From positions 1 to 33,464 of the IMG/VR virus record IMGVR_UViG_3300017757_000055: a DNA stretch of 33,464 nt. One strand, given 5' to 3'. A program made the position numbers and the translations under genes. Positions 13,951 through 31,169 of this stretch are shown here, one piece after another. This DNA is from a virus. Each line of letters opens with the position of its first letter. The first letter of the stretch is position 1. Under the pieces are notes generated by a model. It was not told the DNA's origin, did no database searches, and saw only the letters and a program-made list of their open reading frames with translations.

Positions 13951-14241
13951 ATGGAAATAGAAATGATAGTATTGTATATTTGTATAGCAGCTGGATTAGG
14001 TTTAGGAGCATACAAATACTACAAAAAATTGATGGCTGATGGAAAAATCACACTCGATGAAGTTTTAGATTTGGTTGACGATGTAAAAGATGCCGTAGAG
14101 GATTTACCGTCTTTAAGTAAAATCAAAAAAATGAAGAAAGACGAGTTAATTGGGCTTTGTAAAGATAACGGATTAGAAGTTAGCGGAACAAAAGCAGACC
14201 TAATTAGCCGTTTGGAAGAAATACAAAAGGCAGTTGAATGA
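13951..14241 (+). CDS. Membrane-anchored SAP-domain protein, 96 aa
   Basis: One N-terminal membrane helix (about 5-21, MIVLYICIAAGLGLGAY), a linker DGKITLDEVLDLVDDV (31-46), and a C-terminal SAP domain (about 56-90) with the diagnostic LIGLCKDNGLEVSGTKADLI pattern. SAP domains bind DNA; a membrane-anchored one could tether the genome to the envelope. Alternatively it is a holin-like protein whose tail only resembles SAP. AGGTGAG lies 4 nt upstream of ATG 13951. It is followed by another TM protein. Confidence 0.7.
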   Translation: MEIEMIVLYICIAAGLGLGAYKYYKKLMADGKITLDEVLDLVDDVKDAVEDLPSLSKIKKMKKDELIGLCKDNGLEVSGTKADLISRLEEIQKAVE

Positions 14242-17203: not shown

Positions 17204-18241
17204 ATGGCTTATACAATTGGTTCAGCAAATAGAGGCGCAGTCATTAGACAACAAACATCATTTGGCACTGTAGGTAGCGGAAGCACATTCTTTGGTGCAA
17301 TAGACGACGAATCACTATCAACCACATTTGATACCAATATGCGTGGAGATATGACCCGTTACGGCGCATCAAAGTCAAAGACCGGCAAAAGATATTCCGA
17401 AGGTGGAATAAACATGGCTTTAGACGATTCACAATTCTGCGCACTATTACTAAAGGGCATTTTTCCAAAGGTAGCAACAACCGGTGGAGGAGACCCATAC
17501 ACTCACGCCATGACTGAAATTAATCACGACCAAGGAAGAGCTGGTGCCGAATCATTCCCTGTATTCCAATTAATTATTGTCCGTGATGAAAAGCAACATT
17601 CCTATTCATCCATGAGCGTCAACCGTGTATCTATCAAAGGTAGCGTTGGTGAGTATGTAATGCTAAGTGCAGACTTTGTAGGAAAGGCTGAGGGAGATGA
17701 CTCAGTAACTTCACCAGATGCAATTGCCACCGAATCAACATTAGCCGTAGGTGCAACCGAACCAGTACACTTCCAAAGCGCAAGTGTAGCATTTAAAAAT
17801 TCTTCAGCATCTTTGCAAGTAAAGTCGGTTGATATTGAGTTTAACCTAAACCGTGATGTTGATGCTTCCTTTGCATTAGGAAACGAAACATGCGTTAGAG
17901 AAGCACCACCACAACTTAGGGAAATAACAGGTTCCGTCGAGTTTATCAAGCCTATTCATAGCACATCATTAAATGAACCACTATTCGGTGATATGATTGA
18001 TGGCGGAGCAAACACCATCTACCAACCTGGTTCAAGCAACCCAGCAATTACACTAACATTTACCTCTACGGCAAACCATGACTTTGTAATCAAAGTATAT
18101 CATGTTCAATGGGATGCACCGTCTATGAATGTATCAGGTAGAGATACACAAACAATGTCATTAGGGTTTACAGCACTATTTGATGAAACAAAGAAGGCTA
18201 TGGCAACACTTGATGTTAGAAACGCAGCTTCATCATTGTGA
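17204..18241 (+). CDS. Major tail tube protein
   Basis: A 345-aa protein, mainly beta, with MAYTIGSANRGAVIRQQTSFG at the start, the inner barrel SVNRVSIKGSVGEYVMLSADFVG (about 138-160) and the closing QTMSLGFTALFD. It stacks as rings to form the tail lumen. Position before two small proteins, the frameshifted chaperone and tape measure is the classic siphovirus order. Codon choice is regular as for a high-expression structural gene. It has the conserved GACA-TTAAAGGGG leader. Confidence 0.85.
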   Translation: MAYTIGSANRGAVIRQQTSFGTVGSGSTFFGAIDDESLSTTFDTNMRGDMTRYGASKSKTGKRYSEGGINMALDDSQFCALLLKGIFPKVATTGGGDPYTHAMTEINHDQGRAGAESFPVFQLIIVRDEKQHSYSSMSVNRVSIKGSVGEYVMLSADFVGKAEGDDSVTSPDAIATESTLAVGATEPVHFQSASVAFKNSSASLQVKSVDIEFNLNRDVDASFALGNETCVREAPPQLREITGSVEFIKPIHSTSLNEPLFGDMIDGGANTIYQPGSSNPAITLTFTSTANHDFVIKVYHVQWDAPSMNVSGRDTQTMSLGFTALFDETKKAMATLDVRNAASSL

Positions 18242-18937: not shown

Positions 18938-19090
18938 ATGGATGAGTTTACCGATGCACACGGAGTTTGGCGAGTAGATAAGGTATTGCCAAACGGTGCA
19001 AAAAGGTATGTTTTGGCTGAGCCAGTAGTAAAAGAAAAGAAAAGTAAAGGAAAAGTGAAGAAGAATGCCAGTACTAAAAAAGGAAATTGA
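18938..19090 (+). CDS. Small basic protein, 50 aa
   Basis: MDEFTDAHGVWRVDKVLPNG... forms a short beta unit (GVWRV, RYVLAEPV), followed by a disordered Lys-rich tail. Its end overlaps the next gene by 26 bases in another frame. No clear ribosome site is seen. Translation is plausible because it fills the gap in an otherwise closely packed operon, but it could be chance. Confidence 0.4.
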   Translation: MDEFTDAHGVWRVDKVLPNGAKRYVLAEPVVKEKKSKGKVKKNASTKKGN

Positions 19091-19421
19091 ACTAAACGAT
19101 GGAACAAAAATCTGGGTGCGCCAAGCTTCTGGGTTAGAAAAAATCAAAATAGAAAGCGTACAAGCGAAAGCAGTTAGACGATGCCGTGACTTCGGAAACC
19201 CCGAAGATTGGACTATCGAGCAAAACGAAAAGTTTTTGGAAATTATAGAAGAACTTGGTGGTTCTTTAGAAAACCAAATGACCGAGTGGATTCCTAAGTG
19301 TATATTGACTGAAGGTTTTGATTACAATTTATTAACATCAGAAGAAGCTCGTGATATTCTCGGATTTGTTCGAGGGGATAATGGTGAGGGTGCTATCCCT
19401 TTGGGGTCTTCAGCCGAGTAG
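19065..19421 (+). CDS. Tail assembly chaperone, short form (gpG-like)
   Basis: A 118-aa protein located just before the tape measure gene, as the lambda G/T pair is. It begins MPVLKKEIELNDGTKIWVRQ and is mainly helical after residue 25, with IEQNEKFLEIIEELGG and LLTSEEARDILGFVRG near the end. Such proteins coat the tape measure during tail assembly. Seven codons before the stop, C CCT TTG forms a heptamer CCCTTTG in the zero frame, from which ribosomes could slip -1 into the next open frame. Confidence 0.72.
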   Translation: MPVLKKEIELNDGTKIWVRQASGLEKIKIESVQAKAVRRCRDFGNPEDWTIEQNEKFLEIIEELGGSLENQMTEWIPKCILTEGFDYNLLTSEEARDILGFVRGDNGEGAIPLGSSAE

Positions 19422-19693
19422 CCCCGCTTTTAAGTAGTGCATTTAAAGGAACCTTGCCCTCCGACCTATACGAGAAGTATCACGGTATGGGCGGGCGAGC
19501 ACGAATGGAATTTGACTTAGAAATGGCTTCGGAAATTTCAAGACAAATAGCCAACTCACAAAACAAATCCAAAAACGAGCCTCGTGGTGGAATAAAGGGC
19601 GTAGTAGCCCGTAGGAATCAATTGCGAAAGCAAGCATCACAAAACGCTATTTCCGATGAGCAAGCGGTAAATATGCTTACGGGTATGGAGTAA
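19388..19693 (+). CDS. Tail chaperone -1 frameshift extension (gpT-like)
   Basis: This frame is open from 19388 to 19693 and has no ATG near its start (a TTG at 19454 is the first usable start). It is -1 relative to the upstream chaperone. Shifting at 19397-19403 joins the two as join(19065..19403, 19403..19693), giving a 209-aa fusion whose junction reads AIPL then GVFSRVAPLLSSAFKG, a sensible hydrophobic helix that would be lost if TTG were used. The extension is helical and basic at the end (KGVVARRNQLRKQASQ). In lambda the gpGT fusion recruits tail tube subunits; the same job is inferred here. Confidence 0.72.
   Translation, partial: GCYPFGVFSRVAPLLSSAFKGTLPSDLYEKYHGMGGRARMEFDLEMASEISRQIANSQNKSKNEPRGGIKGVVARRNQLRKQASQNAISDEQAVNMLTGME
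19397..19403 (+). promoter_or_regulatory. Slippery heptamer CCCTTTG for -1 frameshift
   Basis: The heptamer lies in the zero frame as C CCT TTG, obeying the X XXY YYZ rule, seven codons before the stop and within the only 34-base overlap where both frames are open (19388-19421). A small GGGG/CCCC stem (19403-19406 with 19422-19425) could form directly downstream, but this is a weak structure. Confidence 0.65.
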
Positions 19694-19711: not shown

Positions 19712-22700
19712 GTGGCAAAGGTAGGTGGCCCCCGAGTTTTCTTCGACATTGTAGGTGTCTTTAATGCTACCAACATGCTTAAAGACATGGATGCTAAGAT
19801 GACTGTTGTAGAGTCAATTGTCTTAGACTCTATGGATGCTATTATGGGCTCGTTTGCTGGAATATCTGAAGTTATAACGCAGATAACCGAAACAACAGTA
19901 CCACTCGCACAATCCCTATCGGAAGCCACTATTGAGTTTGAAAAATTCGCTGGTGTCAACAAAGAATTAGCAGCCGGTATTATTGAGACGGGTATGGGCT
20001 TTGGTTTTACCGCCGAAGAATCCCTAGCAGCGGGTGCAAAGATGGCACAATTAACCGCTTTAATTGGTGAATCATCTGTCGGTGCTGCTACTGAAATGGG
20101 TCAAACTTTTGCGTTGATTTCCGGTATGGGAACAACGGAGGCTATGACCCGTATGATTAACATGCACCAACAAACTGGGTTTATGTACGGTCATTTAACA
20201 AAAGCCCAATTCGATTTGATGACAGCGGAACAACAAGCAAACCATGTTCGTGTAAATACTATTGAGATATTAGACCAACTTAACACTGTTGAAAATCGTT
20301 CAGCTGCATCAATGAAACAAATAACCTTTGTTATGAATCAGTTTGCATCACAGGCTCACCAAACCGGCGAGTCTATTGCTCACATGGCTGCTATGTCTGC
20401 GGTTTTGATTGAGTCTGGTGAAGAACAAGGTAAGGCTGGTAGGGCTTTGCGTATGATTTATGCACGATTAGGTGCTGATACAAGTGGGGCTAGTACGGAA
20501 TTAAATAAGTTGGGGATAGAAACTCATACTGCTAGTGGTGCTTTGCGCCCATTATCGTCTATTGTAGAGGATTTATCCAGCAAATTCTCTACATTAAGCG
20601 ACGAAGAAAGGCAGCGTATTGTTCAGACCGTAGCCGGAAACGACCACTATGTTAGATTTATTAAACTAATTCAAAACCAAGAACGAATGTCAGAATTAGC
20701 AACAGACGCTATTGTTGACCAGGCTACCGCCTCGGAAGAATTAAACCGTGTTTTAGAAGACCAATCAACTGCTTTAAAAGAAGCACAGGCCGAAATGCAG
20801 CATAACCAAGCACTATTGGGTCAAGCACTTGTTCCTGCATATACAAGGGCTACCGAAATTCAAGCACAGTTTACACTAGGCTTAGCGCAATTATCAGAAA
20901 CAGGATTTGGGAATGCTGTTGCTACCGGATTAATAACACTACAAAGATACGCACAAATTTTAGGTGGTGTCTTTGACATGTATTTGAACATGAAGTCTGT
21001 GAATATCGCTATGCGAACACACACGGCTATTCTGCGGGCTATAAACGGCGAAGAATTGGTCAGAACCGATACGCATAGGCAAAGAAACACTTTAGCCACC
21101 GCTACTATTGCTAATGATGAAATTATTGCCGGATTACAAGAAAAGATATTATTAGCAAAACTAAGAATTACTGAGTATGATAATATATACGGACACAATT
21201 CACAAATGCGAGTTAGGCTTGAACAACAATTAGCCTATGAAACCGAAAGAGTGGGGGTTTTAATTGCTGAAAGAAATACTTTACACCAAACAGAAATGCA
21301 AAGTCGAACCAAAATGAGTATGTTAGCACTTGAGTTAGAGTCAATTGAAACTAACGCCTATGTTAATACCATTCAAAGAACAAAGGTACAAGGAATGGCG
21401 CAAGCGCATTTGGGTCAACAACAAATAGCGAATATGATTGCAGTCAATGCTCAATTAGAAGTTGAATTGGTTGCTACAGGAAGAAGGATTCAAGAAGGTA
21501 AAATTTTAATCAACCAAGAATTGCACAAACATGCCATAGAGTTAGCAAAAATAGAAGCTCAAGATACACAATTGATGAATGCTAAAATAGAATTGGAGCA
21601 GGCAAGAAAAATGGGCTTAATGGCAGCAAACCATGTTGACCTTGAAGAAGAAGTCAACCGCCAGTTGCAGGAAAACATGGTGAGAAGGGCAGGGATAATA
21701 AGATTAACGGAACTCCATGATGGCTACAATAGCATTTTGATAAGCCAAGATAAAGAAAGGAATAAAGCAGCAGCAACAATGTTATCCAGAAATGAAGCAC
21801 TATTAGATGTTAATTATATGTTAGTGCAATTAACTGAAACCGAAGCTTCTAGAAAATCCCGAATTGCAGCAATAGATGAAGAATTAGTAATGACTTTGCG
21901 AGCACAAGGTATTTTGAAAGAACAACTTGGTTTCTTAACCCAAGAAGAAATAGCAACTTTACCCGTATTAATAGGACAAAAAGCACAACTTACCGAAGCA
22001 GAAAAAGCACAAAACATGGCCGAAATACAAAGAATAATTGCTCGAAGGCAATTAAACGCCGAAGGTCTTAGGACACTACCTCTTTTAAGCGCACAATCCC
22101 AAGCACTAACAAAATTTTCTATGGCAGCGGGTATGGCTTCTATGTCCGTACAAGTTCTTGCTGGCGTGTTTGGGTTTGACGAAGAAAGAAGCATGAGAGT
22201 ATCTATGATGTTGATGACACTAAGCATGATTCCTGCTATGGCTCAAATGGCTCAAATGACTGTTGGTATGACCAGTGCTGGATTAGCAGCACAAGGGGCA
22301 GCAACCGCAACAAACAAATTTAATATGGCTTTGAAAGGAATAGGTATAGGTATCGCTATTGCTGGTGTTGTATATTTATTTGATATAATTACTGGCATGG
22401 GTAAAAAGGCTAGTGATGAGGTTGATGAACTCAACGATAGCCTAATGCTAACCGATAAATTACTAAGCGATATGACTCATGAAGAAGCAACAGGTCTTGG
22501 TGTTCCCACAACACTTGTTGACACATTAGGTAGCACCATTGACCTTACCACAATGAATGTGACCGAACTAAGAAATGCAATATCCTCGGCTGAAAGTGAA
22601 ATAGATAATATTGACACTAAGGTAAGTGAATTAGGAAGTGACCATCCAGGAATCCCAACACTGCTAGATGAAAAGGGAGAATTAGAAAAAATGATTGGTT

Positions 22701-23365
22701 CTTTAGACCAAGCATTAGCATTAGAAATATCTTTACAATATCAAGGACTTGATGTTAATAGCACTTTTGCAAGGAAAAAAGTACTGCGTGATTTAGAAGC
22801 TGGTTTATTTTCTGGCGATGGTGCGCCTGACAATTTTGCAAGGACACTCGTTCCTGGTATTGAGTATGTACCATTAGATACCGCAACAGGTACAGAATAT
22901 ATAGAAATTGATACGATGGTGCATGCCTACAAAGACTTAGATGAAACTATTGCTGGTCTTGCCGATGGTAGTATTCGGTATAACGAAATAAACGAAGAAG
23001 GTCTTGCCTTTTTGTCTGCACTCGCAGAAAGTGGTTCATATTTGGCTGACAACTTCGGATATGCTGCAGAAGTAATTGTTGAAGACACAGAAGAAATCGG
23101 CTCAACATTTACCGAGGCTGAAGAAAAGATGCGAGCCTTTGCTAACGCTCGTGAAGAATTATTCTTTGGTGGCAAATCCCAATACATGTCCGGCGAAATG
23201 ATGAAGCAAGTAGTTAATAAGGGTGTTGAAAATTTGTATTCTAATGTGGAGTTATTAATGACTAATAACTTTTATGGATTGACATTTGATGAGGCAGTAA
23301 ATGAGATTAGTAATAGGATAACCGACCAATTAATTAGTCAGGGTGTTCCTTTGAATAGTAGTTAG
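19712..23365 (+). CDS. Tape measure protein
   Basis: A 1217-aa protein that sets tail length and enters the tail lumen. The N-terminal 370 residues resemble TP901-type tape measures: FAGVNKELAAGIIETG, IAHMAAMSAVLIESGEEQGKAGRALRMIYARLGAD (about 228-262), SSKFSTLSDEERQRIVQTVAG. The middle (470-760) is long coiled coil, and a hydrophobic segment runs about 800-897. The start is GTG 19712 with GGGGGTG upstream; an ATG four bases earlier is out of frame. At roughly 1.5 angstrom per residue the tail would be about 180 nm, an estimate only. No lytic domain was seen. Confidence 0.92.
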   Translation: MAKVGGPRVFFDIVGVFNATNMLKDMDAKMTVVESIVLDSMDAIMGSFAGISEVITQITETTVPLAQSLSEATIEFEKFAGVNKELAAGIIETGMGFGFTAEESLAAGAKMAQLTALIGESSVGAATEMGQTFALISGMGTTEAMTRMINMHQQTGFMYGHLTKAQFDLMTAEQQANHVRVNTIEILDQLNTVENRSAASMKQITFVMNQFASQAHQTGESIAHMAAMSAVLIESGEEQGKAGRALRMIYARLGADTSGASTELNKLGIETHTASGALRPLSSIVEDLSSKFSTLSDEERQRIVQTVAGNDHYVRFIKLIQNQERMSELATDAIVDQATASEELNRVLEDQSTALKEAQAEMQHNQALLGQALVPAYTRATEIQAQFTLGLAQLSETGFGNAVATGLITLQRYAQILGGVFDMYLNMKSVNIAMRTHTAILRAINGEELVRTDTHRQRNTLATATIANDEIIAGLQEKILLAKLRITEYDNIYGHNSQMRVRLEQQLAYETERVGVLIAERNTLHQTEMQSRTKMSMLALELESIETNAYVNTIQRTKVQGMAQAHLGQQQIANMIAVNAQLEVELVATGRRIQEGKILINQELHKHAIELAKIEAQDTQLMNAKIELEQARKMGLMAANHVDLEEEVNRQLQENMVRRAGIIRLTELHDGYNSILISQDKERNKAAATMLSRNEALLDVNYMLVQLTETEASRKSRIAAIDEELVMTLRAQGILKEQLGFLTQEEIATLPVLIGQKAQLTEAEKAQNMAEIQRIIARRQLNAEGLRTLPLLSAQSQALTKFSMAAGMASMSVQVLAGVFGFDEERSMRVSMMLMTLSMIPAMAQMAQMTVGMTSAGLAAQGAATATNKFNMALKGIGIGIAIAGVVYLFDIITGMGKKASDEVDELNDSLMLTDKLLSDMTHEEATGLGVPTTLVDTLGSTIDLTTMNVTELRNAISSAESEIDNIDTKVSELGSDHPGIPTLLDEKGELEKMIGSLDQALALEISLQYQGLDVNSTFARKKVLRDLEAGLFSGDGAPDNFARTLVPGIEYVPLDTATGTEYIEIDTMVHAYKDLDETIAGLADGSIRYNEINEEGLAFLSALAESGSYLADNFGYAAEVIVEDTEEIGSTFTEAEEKMRAFANAREELFFGGKSQYMSGEMMKQVVNKGVENLYSNVELLMTNNFYGLTFDEAVNEISNRITDQLISQGVPLNSS

Positions 23366-23373
23366 GTGAGTAA

Positions 23374-26300
23374 ATGACAAGAAGTATAGAAAATAGTAAG
23401 TATTCGGCATGGTTAGTAGGATATTATGATGATTGGATAGGTACACAATGTATCGCTGATGATTCTAATGTTCACGATACAAAGCACAATCACGCTAATA
23501 CACACGCTGGTAATCCGTGTAATGGTGAGGCACCTTTAAATCCCCTGTATAGATTTAGCACAATAGAAAGACAAGAAGCACTATCATTTGCTTCTGGTAG
23601 TGGTGCTTTAAGTGAAGCATTACCGGTAAGGTCATGGATGGGTGATTTCTCGCTAAACAACCAATTCTCTATTTTACACAACCAAGGAATACATGATTAC
23701 ATTACAAAAGACACAAACCGATTATTAGGTGGTTGTTTTTATGAAGGAAAGGCTATACCACGAGCACCACAAACATTTTTTCACCAAAATAGAATAAACT
23801 TGGGTAGGTTGACCTCAAGCACCTATAACGATGGCGACTTAGAAAATGCTACCACAATAACAAATGGTGTTGGTTTTATGTGGATAAACAACGCACGAAG
23901 TACCAATGGTAAGTATTGGATTCCTGCAGACAATGATGGTTCTTATATAAGAAAGAGTACCAAAGATGTATCAGCCACCGAAACCGGTTACCTTAGTAAT
24001 ACAATAAAACATAGTGAGGCGGGCAGTCATCTTAGTTATACAATATTAACTGCGGGGCGTAATGAAAGAAATGCCTATCTTACAGGAATGTTTCAATGGC
24101 AAGCCATGCACCAAGATGCGGGGGCGGTTGACAAAAGAGATGCGGTGGGTCAAGAAATAACATCGTTAGGTGGCAAGCCATTTATGGTGTTTGATATTAA
24201 AAACTACGCACGAAATAGGGCTGATTTTGCAGGAGCTGAAATACCAATTATAGCATACGACGGAACACTAAATGCAACCGGAGATGAAGATGTTTTTCAT
24301 ATTAGAATGTGCGAACAATCCCTATTTGGTGGCAGATTTGGTGGTGGTGCAACAATAACTGGGGCTACACTAAATCAAACCTATGCCCCAAAACTATTAT
24401 TAAATATAGGTTATTTGCATTCAGATGCTACATATTCATCAGCCGGTATAACCGCTACAAATCCCGCTATTACCGTTATGATAGATAGATATGCTATGGA
24501 TATAACTGATGCTTTTGCTAATTATAGCCACTTAGCAACAGGATTATCTAATAATGCTGGTGTAGTTCCCAAAAATTTAGAATACCATTTTTGTCTCAAT
24601 AAAATAGGAACACTGAGCGGTACTACCAAAGAAGATAAAATGAACAATCTTTGGTATGATATTGATGTAAAGTGCAATTTTACTACACAAAAATACCAAG
24701 TTTATGTGAACGGTGTTGCTTATGGTGCTTTAACTGCTTTTCAATCAAAACCAGGTGGTGGAGCATGGTCAGCAACCGATTTTTACGGTTGGAGTTTAGT
24801 GCAAGCCAGGGTTTCTCATACAGGGCTAAGTAGCGAAAGTTTTGTTGGTACTGAAGGTTGTTATTGGAATCACATAGTTATGATTGATAGAGTTGCCTTT
24901 GGAAAATATGTTACTCACCCACTAACAGGTGAAACACCACTATTAAATAAAGTATCAACAATTATGACAAGCAATTCCCTATCATCAATGCGTGTTGATA
25001 TTTACGACGATTCTGATGTATTGAATCTTTATCCCCTAATTAGTGGTGTGGCAAATTCTGATTATCACTTTTTGTTATTTAGAAACGGACAAGATAGACC
25101 TATACTAAACGGTATATTGAATAACATTAGTATTAAACAACAGATGAAACAACAAACAAAGGTAATAGAGCTGGCTATTAGCGACCCCGCTAAATTATTG
25201 GATAAAACACTACCTGTTTTCGATTTAGGGCAAACAACACTAACCAGTGATTTAGATGTAGCAGCGGGGCTACGGGGGGGCGCAGAATCGTTGCAGGATG
25301 CACTTTATTTTGGAACGGCAAAACTATTAGTTCGTGATGATAACATAGGTGGTGATTCTAACTCTAATGCTTCACTAAGTTTTATGCCTACACAAGACCA
25401 AAGAACATGTTTAGATTCGGCACACCCTATCCAGTTGTATAATAATGAGGAGACAATCGGGCCAAATTACCCCGAATACCAGTGGCTCGGTAAAAAAGCA
25501 AAGGTGATTCACCCACTTAAGCATAACCCAGGTTCCGGTATGGTTATTTCATCATCAGTTACTGCCGTTGCTATTGATGCTAACGATGGAACAGTAGTAT
25601 GGGATTTGTCTGGTTCGCAAGCACCGGAAGGTTTGCAGACCGGCGATACAATAAACATTTTTGGAAGTGTGGTTAGCGATTGTACTAACCAAGCAGTCAC
25701 ACAACATAGCGGTCAACAAGCAGCCGATGTGGCAGCAAATAACTTTTGTATTACTAAAGCACCACCAGGATTTAATGCTACATCAGATGCTTACATTCGC
25801 TGGCAACATGGCACTGCAGAAAAAGTTTGTATTAGATTAACTTCGGGTTCATACTCCCAAACACCATCATACACACAAGCCACTCATGTAGTAGTAAAAA
25901 GAACAGATACGGCACTTAGCCAACATGACAATACGCCATATAAAATACTAAATTCTGGTTATGGTAGTGGTGCTGATGCCTATAACTTTTACATTTGGAT
26001 TGATGCGGATTGGACAAGTTTTACAGGCAAAGCAACCACTTTTGTAGGAAATGCAACACCGATAGGTTGTACTTCGACAAGCAACCAGTCTAGAGTATAT
26101 TGGAGTAATGGGTATGTTGATTTGCATACTGCTGACGCATCTAAAAGCACAGTAACCACTTTTAATAATGTAGCACCTTGGAGTACACCAAGTGTTAAAA
26201 ATCGTGCAGCACAAGCCGTTTGGTTGCGTGATTTGCCTAAATCACTTTGGTTTCAAAAGATGTTCGGAAGAATTGCGGAAACACCAGACGCAACGGGAAC

Positions 26301-29300
26301 ACTACAAACACCTTACCCAGTCAACACATACACAGGCTCCGGCTTTCATACAACTGGGGTATTAACAACCATAGATTATAACGATGTTTCAGCTGATATT
26401 CGCACCGGAGGCGGTGTAGCAGAATTAGTACACCCTAATGGTGAAGTCGATTCATTTTGTTTTGGTAATGTTTCAAATGCTTCAGGTAAAGCCCAATTAA
26501 ACAATTGTAAATTTATAACTCATAATTACCAAACTAATTTTACTATGGGTGGCACTGCCCCAACAATCAACATTAGAACAATTAGTGATGATTACAAACA
26601 CATTTGGGTGCTTTGGGCTGACATGAGAAACGATGGTACTGCTGATGCTGACGGTGGAGAAAGAGATACAAAGTTTGGCTTACTTTACCCTACACCAGAT
26701 AATTATAGCGTATCACTACAATATACTGACCAAGTGGATATAGAGGGTAATGCTGTGGATTTTGTTGATTTAAAGGTGGGTTACGATTGTGATATTTGGG
26801 AATTAAGCTCGAAACAAGAACCATATAGCGAAGATGCCTGGAGCACTTTGGGTTCTAATAGCCACTTTGAACCGTCATTCCACAATTGGGATAGGAAGGC
26901 TGGTGCATTTTTGGTGTTTGATTTTTCTAAGTTTTTTAATCTAAACACCGAAGCAAACGGTGGTAAATGTAACCAAATAGCCGGAAGAAGAAAAACCTTG
27001 GGCGACTTAGTTATTGATACCGAAGGACACCCCGCTTTAATAGATGATTATTGGCAAGAAGTTATAGCATCACCAAAGAACTTAGGATTAGCACGAACAG
27101 ATATTACTAATCATCCCAATTGGTATAGATTCTTTAGTGCAGGCTCAAATTTAGCACCAAATGTAGGAACTTCAAATACTAATGCTGGTTCAACGACATT
27201 AAAATTAGATGACACAAGCGAGTTTCCATCCGAAGGTATAGGGATGATAGAATTAGAAAGAGACTCCACACAAGGGGGTACAAAGGAAAGAAACCTATTA
27301 TTCTTTTTATGGTTTGGTAATAATACCAGTACTAATACCTTATCCGATGTAACAAGTTTTGATTTAGACGAAACAACATTAACTCAAGACCAAATCCAAA
27401 CACAAATGTTTCAAAGGCTTCTTGGATTTACTAATTCGGCTGCTGGTGTAACGGCTTCGGGTTTGAACCAAAAACTAATTTACAATGACACTATAAATAA
27501 TATCACCACTGGTTATGATAAAATCGTTGCATATTCTTCCCTTAGTGCGCCTTTCGCTTTACGATTTATGATGAAACTAAATGGTTATGTAGAGTCAAAA
27601 GACAATGGCAACTGGTATATCCATGACGCACTTAGAAGCATGATGACGCTTGCTAATACACACCACCCACTATCTCTATTTAGATTACCAGTAACATTTA
27701 GCAAAGTAAATATACCAATAACAAGAAGAATGACGACTACACAAACTACAGTATCTATTGCATCACGACATTACCGTGTTTCTTCGGGTAGTGTTTTGGA
27801 TTGGGATAACTTCGGAGGTGTTGTTGATATGCGAGGCAAATCCTTACTACAAGCGGTTGTTGAAATAACAGAAAAAACTCGGGTAGGCGAACAAGGCTCA
27901 TCGACTATTTTTACCTATACTACCGGTAAAGATGGTAAGTTAGATATAAGGCCAGCATACTCGTCTGGTTTTGTTTTTAATAGAAATAATCTTAGTTTAT
28001 CTAACATTTCTGGTTCTCCAACCGTATCTATTTCAAATGTTAGAGTGTTTTATAACAACGGTGCATCATTTGTTGATTTCCCTGCGGGAATATCAGGAAC
28101 CGAATCAAAGTGGAAGTTTGTTGATGTTCCTACGGTTAGGTCAGATAAAGAGGCATCACAAATAGCAAAAAGAACCTATGAACAATCAAAAGAATCTAAT
28201 ATAAAAATAGAAGCGGAGTTCGTTACACAGGCTACCGAAACAGACAAAATGCTTTATAATGCTCGCTTTGGGTACATAGCAGACCCTGCCTTTAGAACAA
28301 GCTCTCCCGTTTTAAAAGGAGCTCAAACTTGGACTTCATGGTATAACGGTGCTCATTATAGCGGAATACAAAACAGATTAGATGGAAACCTTACTTGGAA
28401 TGGTTATGGTACTGCTAATGTATATAACAAAAGGTCGTATGGAAAAGAAGTTACAAATTATTCGTCTGACCCACAAAATCATTTTGGTGGTGCTTGTATA
28501 TTCCCTACCGGTGATGTTGCTCCAGAGCAAAACTATGGTTGGATTGGCGATAAATCCGTTACAAATGCGGTAGAGATAGTGCATATACCAAAGGGAATGC
28601 CAAAGGTTAGTGATGCACACGGCCATGAACTTAGGGTTAGTATTCAATTGGCTGATTACTACGAAGTTTCCGATGGTTTAGACATAGAAGATATGGAGTT
28701 TTTCCTTACTTTAGCCGATGTTGACCCTACATTTACGGCTGGCGCAACAACGGTAGGAAGTGCCGTTTCTAATACTTTCCAACCAATAACAATTGCCGAG
28801 AATTATCCCGATGTTAAACACCTACAGTTTAAGCATAGTGGTTTTCATGAGATTGAAATACCGGCAGGATATTGGTCTGGTGCAACCGGTAATGAAAGAA
28901 TCGTAGTTTCTATTGATTGTGAATATCTAAGGGCATGTCTAAGACATAGAATGGGTAGTGCGATAGGTTCGCCAAAGTGGGGTAACGCCGTACAAATTCC
29001 TGGTGCTCCTAACATTGGAACTGTTGATAGTGGTTCATGTTTCCCTATGGGTGCAAGAACTCAACCAAATATCCCTGTGGGTCAAGATGCACCTTGGTAT
29101 CACGCCCCAAGAATAATTATCGTTGATGATTTAAATTTCTATCCATCAACAAAAGTTACTTTTGAAGACGCATCTCTGGGCATTACCTCAGCAACTCCAT
29201 TTTCGATAAATCAGGTAAAGTGGAATGCAAACGAAAGAACTCACGATTCAGTTAGATTAACATTAGAAAAGGATGAGTCAAAGGGATTAGGGGGTCTTGC

Positions 29301-30282
29301 GTCATATATATTGCCGGAAATAAACAAAGGAAGAACTCCAGGAACTATACCTACCAAACCTACACCACCACCTCGAACCGGTGGCGGAGGAGGCGGGGGC
29401 GGAGATAGCGGTTATAGACCAACCATACCACCGCAAGTTGGGCCAGTAGGAACACCTTATACTAACCCATACCAAACCCAGGAAGTAGGAAATACACCAA
29501 TAGGAAATAACCCCGAGGGCATTAGGAATCAGCCTGGTGCGGGCGTTGATGCTGGAACCACTACGATTAGCGGGCAATTGCTTTCACAAGCAAATGTTGG
29601 TATAAACAATACAACGGCTGATTTAATTAAAAGGGCTACCGGAAACATGGACTTTCACGGACAGTTCGGCAATAAAGATGGGGAATTTTCTATACTAGGC
29701 CAAAAGAAAAAGGGTGCTCCGGCACAAACCACTAGAGAACTAGATGGTATTGATTGTGTTTGGGATAAAAATAGGGGCGCAGTATTTTCGAGTGAGGGTG
29801 CGGTTTTCCCTGGTATTACCAGTGAAGACGGTAGCGCAGTAGGACAAGTACATACCCATTCTCTATCGGCCACAGTTCCTAGTGATGTTATAGGTAAAAA
29901 GATTGTATTAGAAGGCCGTATTAGTATGTCGGGGATGGCAGGTGGTACAGCAAACGGAGCATCGTTACTTGTAAAATTAGAGTGTAAAGAAACAGGAAGT
30001 TCAGTTAGTAAATTAGTACCGATATACGCATCAACAAATGAAGATGAAAATGCTTTTATCAATATGACTTTGTTAAGTTGTGAATTGGATGGTGCAAATG
30101 TCGAGGGAAACACGATTAAAGCGACCATAAAGCGTCAAGCAACAACCGGTTATGACACAGCTGGGTATAATTCAGTAGTTATGAACAACCTAAAAATGAA
30201 GTTTGTCCGTAGTGCGGTCTCGGGCAGGTCTGATTCATATAGATTCTTAGGGCTAAAGAATGGTGGGGTGAGAGGTAATTGA
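23374..30282 (+). CDS. Giant tail-tip/hub protein, 2302 aa
   Basis: The largest gene of the window, directly after the tape measure, as for baseplate hub and tail-tip genes. ATG 23374 is preceded by TAGGTGAGTAA. I see no catalytic motif. Residues about 578-612 (ISIKQQMKQQTKVIELAISD) and about 1582-1612 (SDKEASQIAKRTYEQSKESNI) recall segments of hub-type tail proteins, and the rest is mostly beta-rich. A Pro/Gly linker (about 1989-2060, containing eight Gly in a row) leads to a C-terminal beta domain (2140-2302), perhaps a receptor-binding tip. It may combine distal tail, hub and spike functions usually split among several genes. Recognition is positional more than homologous. Confidence 0.75.
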   Translation: MTRSIENSKYSAWLVGYYDDWIGTQCIADDSNVHDTKHNHANTHAGNPCNGEAPLNPLYRFSTIERQEALSFASGSGALSEALPVRSWMGDFSLNNQFSILHNQGIHDYITKDTNRLLGGCFYEGKAIPRAPQTFFHQNRINLGRLTSSTYNDGDLENATTITNGVGFMWINNARSTNGKYWIPADNDGSYIRKSTKDVSATETGYLSNTIKHSEAGSHLSYTILTAGRNERNAYLTGMFQWQAMHQDAGAVDKRDAVGQEITSLGGKPFMVFDIKNYARNRADFAGAEIPIIAYDGTLNATGDEDVFHIRMCEQSLFGGRFGGGATITGATLNQTYAPKLLLNIGYLHSDATYSSAGITATNPAITVMIDRYAMDITDAFANYSHLATGLSNNAGVVPKNLEYHFCLNKIGTLSGTTKEDKMNNLWYDIDVKCNFTTQKYQVYVNGVAYGALTAFQSKPGGGAWSATDFYGWSLVQARVSHTGLSSESFVGTEGCYWNHIVMIDRVAFGKYVTHPLTGETPLLNKVSTIMTSNSLSSMRVDIYDDSDVLNLYPLISGVANSDYHFLLFRNGQDRPILNGILNNISIKQQMKQQTKVIELAISDPAKLLDKTLPVFDLGQTTLTSDLDVAAGLRGGAESLQDALYFGTAKLLVRDDNIGGDSNSNASLSFMPTQDQRTCLDSAHPIQLYNNEETIGPNYPEYQWLGKKAKVIHPLKHNPGSGMVISSSVTAVAIDANDGTVVWDLSGSQAPEGLQTGDTINIFGSVVSDCTNQAVTQHSGQQAADVAANNFCITKAPPGFNATSDAYIRWQHGTAEKVCIRLTSGSYSQTPSYTQATHVVVKRTDTALSQHDNTPYKILNSGYGSGADAYNFYIWIDADWTSFTGKATTFVGNATPIGCTSTSNQSRVYWSNGYVDLHTADASKSTVTTFNNVAPWSTPSVKNRAAQAVWLRDLPKSLWFQKMFGRIAETPDATGTLQTPYPVNTYTGSGFHTTGVLTTIDYNDVSADIRTGGGVAELVHPNGEVDSFCFGNVSNASGKAQLNNCKFITHNYQTNFTMGGTAPTINIRTISDDYKHIWVLWADMRNDGTADADGGERDTKFGLLYPTPDNYSVSLQYTDQVDIEGNAVDFVDLKVGYDCDIWELSSKQEPYSEDAWSTLGSNSHFEPSFHNWDRKAGAFLVFDFSKFFNLNTEANGGKCNQIAGRRKTLGDLVIDTEGHPALIDDYWQEVIASPKNLGLARTDITNHPNWYRFFSAGSNLAPNVGTSNTNAGSTTLKLDDTSEFPSEGIGMIELERDSTQGGTKERNLLFFLWFGNNTSTNTLSDVTSFDLDETTLTQDQIQTQMFQRLLGFTNSAAGVTASGLNQKLIYNDTINNITTGYDKIVAYSSLSAPFALRFMMKLNGYVESKDNGNWYIHDALRSMMTLANTHHPLSLFRLPVTFSKVNIPITRRMTTTQTTVSIASRHYRVSSGSVLDWDNFGGVVDMRGKSLLQAVVEITEKTRVGEQGSSTIFTYTTGKDGKLDIRPAYSSGFVFNRNNLSLSNISGSPTVSISNVRVFYNNGASFVDFPAGISGTESKWKFVDVPTVRSDKEASQIAKRTYEQSKESNIKIEAEFVTQATETDKMLYNARFGYIADPAFRTSSPVLKGAQTWTSWYNGAHYSGIQNRLDGNLTWNGYGTANVYNKRSYGKEVTNYSSDPQNHFGGACIFPTGDVAPEQNYGWIGDKSVTNAVEIVHIPKGMPKVSDAHGHELRVSIQLADYYEVSDGLDIEDMEFFLTLADVDPTFTAGATTVGSAVSNTFQPITIAENYPDVKHLQFKHSGFHEIEIPAGYWSGATGNERIVVSIDCEYLRACLRHRMGSAIGSPKWGNAVQIPGAPNIGTVDSGSCFPMGARTQPNIPVGQDAPWYHAPRIIIVDDLNFYPSTKVTFEDASLGITSATPFSINQVKWNANERTHDSVRLTLEKDESKGLGGLASYILPEINKGRTPGTIPTKPTPPPRTGGGGGGGGDSGYRPTIPPQVGPVGTPYTNPYQTQEVGNTPIGNNPEGIRNQPGAGVDAGTTTISGQLLSQANVGINNTTADLIKRATGNMDFHGQFGNKDGEFSILGQKKKGAPAQTTRELDGIDCVWDKNRGAVFSSEGAVFPGITSEDGSAVGQVHTHSLSATVPSDVIGKKIVLEGRISMSGMAGGTANGASLLVKLECKETGSSVSKLVPIYASTNEDENAFINMTLLSCELDGANVEGNTIKATIKRQATTGYDTAGYNSVVMNNLKMKFVRSAVSGRSDSYRFLGLKNGGVRGN

Positions 30283-30464
30283 CGGAATGGTGTCTTAGTG
30301 TAGGTAGTGGGGATATAGCCCACGAAACCTGTTTACCACCACACGCATTTTTTATAGCGATTGCTGCCGAATGTTTTTTCTATATACTATGTGGTATGGG
30401 GTTATGGAAGGCCTTTAAACTACGACAACGAAAAAAACTTGAGATGGTAATGTCAAAGGAATAA
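30279..30464 (+). CDS. Small single-TM protein ending late operon, 61 aa
   Basis: TTG 30279 starts inside the previous stop (TTGA), after GGTGAGAGGTAA, which supports the non-ATG start. It has one strong membrane helix (about 24-43, FFIAIAAECFFYILCGMGLW) and a basic C-terminus (RQRKKLE). A late-operon end and one TM segment fit a lysis or envelope-active protein, but no family is recognised. The stop overlaps the convergent ERCC4 nuclease gene by 12 bases, so no free terminator space exists. Confidence 0.6.
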   Translation: MTEWCLSVGSGDIAHETCLPPHAFFIAIAAECFFYILCGMGLWKAFKLRQRKKLEMVMSKE

Positions 30465-31169
30465 GTCTCCTGCTTTCTTTAGTAACCGAGCTCTTTGGCG
30501 TGTTACTCCACGCGTTTTCATTAACTCTTTCTGTGTCATTTTTTTGTCAAGTATTTTCGAGATACTCCCATGCGTAGTCAACAACTGGCGGGCGATTTGA
30601 GGCGTGATACCTTGAATCCCACATAGCATTCTTATCCGAGGGTCTGTTTCACTTACAACTCCACTAACTAAAAACGGATTATTATTGCGTTTACCTTGTA
30701 TAGTCATTTGAGTATGATTAGTCTTTACCCACTCTACGAAGTCATTCATAGTTTCTACTTGCATAAATTTAATCTTGGGGTGGCGAATGTGAAGTGTTTC
30801 TTTAAACTTCTTAATAGTGGCATTCATTCTTGCTATTTGTATTGCCATTTCTTGCCTTGTGGGTTTGCGACCCTTAATAAAAGGCTTTAGAGTAGTACCA
30901 TAGACTACGAGAAAAGCAACATCAAAGTTATCGGCTAAATCGGTAAGTTGTGCATGAACCGTTCTTGAACGACCATGACCCATAATACTATGATATAAGT
31001 CATTGATTTCCTTTGCCTCCATACCCCAACCTAAATCTGGTATGGTGTAATCACCAACGGGTAGTCTATCCACCTTGGCTAAACCCTTTTCATCTAAACT
31101 ATTATCCCCGAGTGCCATTAATAATTTATTAATGACTTTGGGGTTTTCTCTATCATCAATATGAAGCAT
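30453..31169 (-). CDS. ERCC4 (XPF/Hef-type) nuclease with HhH tail
   Basis: A 238-aa structure-specific endonuclease. The ERCC4 domain (1-140) has IDDREN (4-9), VGDY (38-41) and E51-A-K53 followed by INDL (55-58), equal to the GDX(n)ERKX3D signature except that Arg is replaced by Ala. The tail (180-232) has two helix-hairpin-helix motifs (GIQGITPQIARQLL and TRGVTRQRARLL) for binding DNA junctions. Proteins of this class cut branched or flapped DNA at replication forks; archaeal Hef also has a helicase, absent here. Expected role is replication or recombination intermediate resolution. No clear ribosome site precedes ATG 31169, 26 bases after the upstream gene. Confidence 0.9.
   Translation of the reverse strand: MLHIDDRENPKVINKLLMALGDNSLDEKGLAKVDRLPVGDYTIPDLGWGMEAKEINDLYHSIMGHGRSRTVHAQLTDLADNFDVAFLVVYGTTLKPFIKGRKPTRQEMAIQIARMNATIKKFKETLHIRHPKIKFMQVETMNDFVEWVKTNHTQMTIQGKRNNNPFLVSGVVSETDPRIRMLCGIQGITPQIARQLLTTHGSISKILDKKMTQKELMKTRGVTRQRARLLKKAGDLFL

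Follow-up and report, generated by a model that had tools for sequence, protein, structure and literature searches.

The stretch of DNA analysed here, referred to below as the window, comprises 33,464 nucleotides (positions 1 to 33,464 of the IMG/VR virus record IMGVR_UViG_3300017757_000055). Between its tail tube and tape measure genes, where the G/GT genes lie in phage lambda, it carries a small gene, here called G, whose 3′ end is overlapped by an open frame in the −1 phase, here called T (Table 1). The extents of both frames given in a preliminary description of the window were recovered unchanged, with an overlap of 34 nt counting the stop codon. The end of G reads AAT GGT GAG GGT GCT ATC CCT TTG GGG TCT TCA GCC GAG TAG in the zero frame, and the exact heptamer C CCT TTG that had been noted in that frame indeed lies inside the overlap.

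Table 1. Positions of the predicted tail chaperone genes, the slippery heptamer and the neighbouring genes in the window.
Feature	Position	Strand	Basis or remark
Tail tube protein	17204-18241	+	PF18906 5e-15; phrog_290 1e-16
G, predicted tail assembly chaperone, 118 aa	19065-19421	+	Ends at TAG 19419-19421; normal termination product
Predicted G-T fusion, about 209 aa: G residues 1-113 (...EGAIPL) and 96 aa of T	19065-19693	+	Inferred from heptamer position
GAGGG, Shine-Dalgarno (SD)-like stretch, possible stimulator	19386-19390	+	Upstream of heptamer
T frame (-1), open	19388-19693	+	Conservation in relatives; codon-position variability moves to the -1 frame past the G stop
Slippery heptamer C CCT TTG, zero frame; -1 pairing CCC TTT	19397-19403	+	CCCTTT[GAT] in 96/108 relatives
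T, expressed part (predicted), 96 aa, GVFSRVAPLLSSAFKG...	19403-19690	+	
Tape measure protein, directly downstream of T	19712-23365	+	phrog_4211 6e-24 and other tape-measure families

Elsewhere in the window, a small SAP-domain protein (13951–14241; PF02037, E 1.5e-11) is encoded within the virion gene block, and past the tape measure gene lies a gene for a 2,302-aa protein (23374–30282), the first 875 aa of which have no Pfam match.

At a threshold of E < 0.01, searches of G and T against Pfam and PHROGs gave no known chaperone family; one member of the family matches phrog_344 (tail assembly chaperone) weakly, at E 0.04. Modelled with AlphaFold (pLDDT 90.7), G consists of a beta hairpin and helices, as does the tail chaperone gp13 of HK97 (2OB9), which ranks first among solved structures for this model in both Foldseek and VIA-align. 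The match itself is weak (Foldseek E 0.3–0.5; Z 4.9; 81 residues aligned, rmsd 4.0, 14% identity), suggestive of homology rather than proof of it, and several viral tail assembly chaperones come next in the ranking against BFVD. Such fold scores are weak alone but, combined with the gene order, they make a persuasive case from the model that G is a tail assembly chaperone. In the model of T, the C-terminal half is of low confidence, and the only match was to an unnamed viral protein. No relatives of G, the portal or the tail tube protein were found in named phages, nor did the tail tube protein or the G profile find any in 84,980 prokaryote genomes.

The comparative evidence comes from 108 distinct IMG/VR gene pairs, including that of the window, which were found with G and T as queries and in which the lowest pairwise identity between G proteins is 44%. 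T is in the −1 phase in all 108. A zero-frame CCCTTTG, CCCTTTA or CCCTTTT lies in the overlap of 96 pairs, among them the nearest kin of the window (L001–L004); the comparison of relatives for a heptamer at the same place, proposed in the preliminary description, comes out in favour of the frameshift in the clade of the window. One further pair, L151, which sits on a long branch, carries T TTT TTG in its place, 13 nt upstream of the G stop, possibly a turnover in which one slippery site was replaced by another canonical heptamer; with it, 97 of the 108 overlaps hold a canonical XXXYYYZ heptamer. The 11 others have NCCTTTT with A, G or T as the first base (nine pairs) or CATTTT (two pairs). Clustering of the set at 70% G identity gave 20 clusters, and 19 of their representatives have the heptamer. 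The distance from the heptamer to the G stop varies from 7 to 34 nt, the stop shifting its place and changing its type, and the heptamer is therefore not merely part of a conserved C-terminus of G.

Within the window, zero-frame XXXYYYZ occurs at 67 of the 9,936 codon sites of its genes, two of these being CCCTTTN; on these counts, the naive chance expectation for an overlap of 11 codons is ~0.07 for any XXXYYYZ and ~0.002 for CCCTTTN. Given the relatives, a chance origin of the heptamer is untenable.

Codon usage at the site points the same way. Where CCT TT is kept (92 distinct contexts), the preceding codon specifies Val, Ile, Pro, Leu, Cys or Thr, and its third base is C in 84 of them, against a background elsewhere in G of 0.12 for GTC among Val codons and 0.14 for ATC among Ile codons. 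The proline at the heptamer column is encoded by CCT in all 105 pairs that have it (0.37 elsewhere), and the codon that follows is TTG or TTA in 70 of 70 cases when it specifies Leu (0.50 elsewhere) and TTT in 22 of 22 when it specifies Phe. No other conserved Pro column in the G alignment showed comparable codon fixation. By this comparison, the heptamer is conserved as nucleotides, beyond the residues that it encodes. Variability in the alignment columns is greatest at third codon positions, those of frame 0 upstream of the heptamer and those of frame −1 past the G stop (1.48 and 1.52 bits), and both frames are therefore coding; the short overlap itself gives a mixed signal, as double coding would.

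The preliminary description had also stated that the downstream frame lacks a good start codon, and this holds for the window: the first ATG, GTG or TTG of the T frame is the TTG at 19454, downstream of an FKG motif in which K and G are invariant among the relatives. The T residues VAP, which are likewise conserved in relatives, and the invariant K and G thus precede any start codon available in the window. Compared with the frameshift product, a protein begun at 19454 would lack 17 codons (19403–19453), rather than the about 22 residues first suggested, a figure that counted the whole open frame from 19388.

These observations bear directly on the possibility that T is translated separately from G, through internal initiation or through termination–reinitiation near the G stop, the heptamer being incidental. 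Some ATG does precede the FKG motif in 76 of the 108 pairs, and in many relatives outside the clade of the window a −1 frame ATG lies 17–32 nt past the G stop. In one 26-row group of the tree (computed from G and T without the overlap; support 92, not starred), an ATG overlaps the G stop in 24 rows, as TGATG or TAATG, and 10 of these 24 are without the heptamer. The refuting condition named in the preliminary description, a conserved ATG and ribosome site at the second frame, does not occur in the window or its nearest kin, which have no ATG with a ribosome site there; this other clade, with its overlapping ATG and decaying heptamer, qualifies that result. Against separate synthesis of T, 21 of the 108 pairs, including the window and its nearest kin, have no ATG, GTG or TTG ahead of the FKG motif, and CCCTTTG is present in every one of them; in the window, the one late TTG would discard conserved T residues; and the conservation of CCCTTT at the nucleotide level would be left unexplained. 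We consider separate synthesis an improbable explanation for the window.

A second alternative is that CCCTTT is kept solely by protein constraint in two overlapping frames, with no slippage at all. The −1 frame reads P-F here and the zero frame x-P-L, and drift would indeed be limited by such double coding; the −1 frame at this point, however, needs no translation unless the shift happens. The C before CCT, moreover, is kept though the zero-frame residue varies, the first C of the heptamer decays only where an alternative ATG exists, and L151 exchanges the site for another canonical heptamer. Double coding by itself is accordingly a very unlikely account. That a sequencing or assembly indel has split a single ORF, a general possibility in metagenome contigs with nothing further in its favour, can be dismissed with near certainty, because 108 distinct sequences from many metagenomes share this −1 arrangement and have both frames unbroken.

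A −1 frameshift of the lambda G/GT type, as first suggested for this locus, is instead well supported by the gene order, the constant −1 phase, the conservation of the heptamer and coding selection in both frames. We regard it as highly probable, judging from the sequences, that 19065–19693 is a lambda-type G/GT tail chaperone pair, in which T is reached by −1 slippage, and that it belongs to a tailed marine virus, probably an archaeal one. Most ribosomes would stop at the TAG at 19419 and release the 118-aa G protein, while a minority would slip back by one base at C CCT TTG, the tRNA-Pro moving from CCT to CCC and the tRNA-Leu from TTG to TTT, and would read the −1 frame to 19693 to give a fusion protein of about 209 aa. 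On the lambda model, G in many copies and GT in few would coat the product of the neighbouring tape measure gene and would recruit the tube protein, whose gene lies just upstream. We infer the occurrence of slippage, its rate and this role in assembly from the arrangement of the locus.

Several candidate stimulators and one other mechanism were considered and set aside. A stem or pseudoknot downstream of the heptamer found little favour: the downstream RNA of the window folds no better than its shuffles when folded without pseudoknots (z −0.07 and +1.17), over the whole set of relatives there is a slight tendency to stability (mean z −0.70, against −0.12 for a control stretch), and no shared stem was seen by eye in an alignment of the 22-nt group. 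In its strength of pairing with the assumed anti-SD, the GAGGG or GAAGG upstream of the heptamer comes close to the start of G, but this pairing (−7.06 observed, −5.97 expected under synonymous-codon randomization) is mostly explained by the residues E-G-A and codon use. Transcriptional slippage was set aside, the site having no long homopolymer.

All 11 pairs without a canonical heptamer fall in the 26-row group described above (L044, L045, L053, L055, L058, L062, L073, L081, L118 and L119, with sister rows), and among the remaining 82 rows only L151, with its replacement heptamer, is without CCCTTT. Losses being confined to the clade with the overlapping ATG, L151 apart, the heptamer is lost where another start for T is present. 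Counting L151, the tree needs a minimum of seven changes to account for the presence or absence of CCCTTT. Two rows of the clade depart from the pattern: L094, on a contig of 4.5 kb, is the sole pair with neither heptamer (ACATTTT) nor stop-overlapping ATG, and L167 has lost the ATG and kept CCCTTTT. The clade has apparently switched, as far as its sequences tell, from frameshifting to stop–start coupling. A fuller reading, that within one virus family T is reached by frameshifting in most lineages, and that in one clade a stop-overlapping ATG and a repeatedly decaying slippery site mark separate, translationally coupled G and T proteins, is one that we put forward tentatively, at slightly under an even chance. 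At the sites without the heptamer, CCT TTT C still permits the A-site slip, and shifting may persist there at a lower rate.

The attribution to an archaeal virus, also made in the preliminary description, draws on replication genes and a nuclease gene. The nearest long relative of the window, the 61-kb L002 contig, encodes a family B DNA polymerase, which matches archaeal and eukaryotic enzymes of that family, and an RFC small subunit, for which the best relatives of solved structure come from archaea (2chq, 1iqp). The window itself encodes on the minus strand (30453–31169) a protein with ERCC4 and helix–hairpin–helix domains, resembling XPF/Hef-like nucleases, with marginal similarity (E 0.007) to the annotated Hef nuclease of HVTV-1. 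These genes support the attribution, and the host is likely, from the gene content, to be archaeal. The L002 contig also encodes a PLP-dependent enzyme (L186, 11345–12235) and an ArdC-like anti-restriction protein with a metallopeptidase domain (L187, 7353–8348). Among viruses of Poseidoniales, the Aoguangviridae of the order Magrovirales encode PCNA among their replisome genes (PMC10768690). Membership of Magrovirales was considered for the window and not adopted: neither PCNA (PF00705; 0 of 15) nor TFB was found in 15 long relatives, although these contigs may be fragments and the absence of PCNA is not final.

The locus resembles lambda G/GT in having a small gene between the tube and tape measure genes, an XXXYYYZ heptamer towards the 3′ end of G, T in the −1 phase and, in the clade of the window, a long downstream frame without a good start of its own. 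It differs in its heptamer, CCCTTTG, where that of lambda is GGGAAAG, in having no detected sequence homology, in its probably archaeal setting and in the one related clade that seems to replace the shift by a stop–start overlap. In tailed phages, frameshifting is the norm for tail chaperone genes (PMC5009743), and a −1 frameshift has been reported in the haloarchaeal Druskaviridae HVTV-1 and HCTV-1, -2 and -5 (PMC8211752); the mechanism proposed here is therefore not new. Those too are archaeal tailed viruses in which the chaperone is annotated as G and a joined G-T before the tape measure gene, with a −1 heptamer in the overlap; on inspection, the sequence of the joined chaperone of HVTV-1 has GGGAAAG 34 nt before the G stop. 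Unlike the window, they have hypersaline hosts and a different heptamer, and the proteins were unrelated in the searches made. In the literature searched, we found no description of this protein family, of a CCCTTTN site or of an apparent switch to a stop–start overlap, and the family, the site and its turnover appear to be new.

Recoding in archaea is thinly documented, the reviewed record consisting of the case of alpha-fucosidase and of frameshifts reported for a few haloviruses (PMC8211752), and some 100 diverse pairs from marine viruses offer a deep comparative case outside the halophiles. CCCTTTN, with no conserved RNA structure, is a new site for testing on archaeal ribosomes. The reading also corrects annotation, since gene callers would miss T or give it the wrong start. 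In the clade that gains a stop–start overlap while losing the heptamer, the need for a G-T fusion in tail assembly becomes testable and, if the switch is true, it suggests that the covalent link between G and T may be dispensable.
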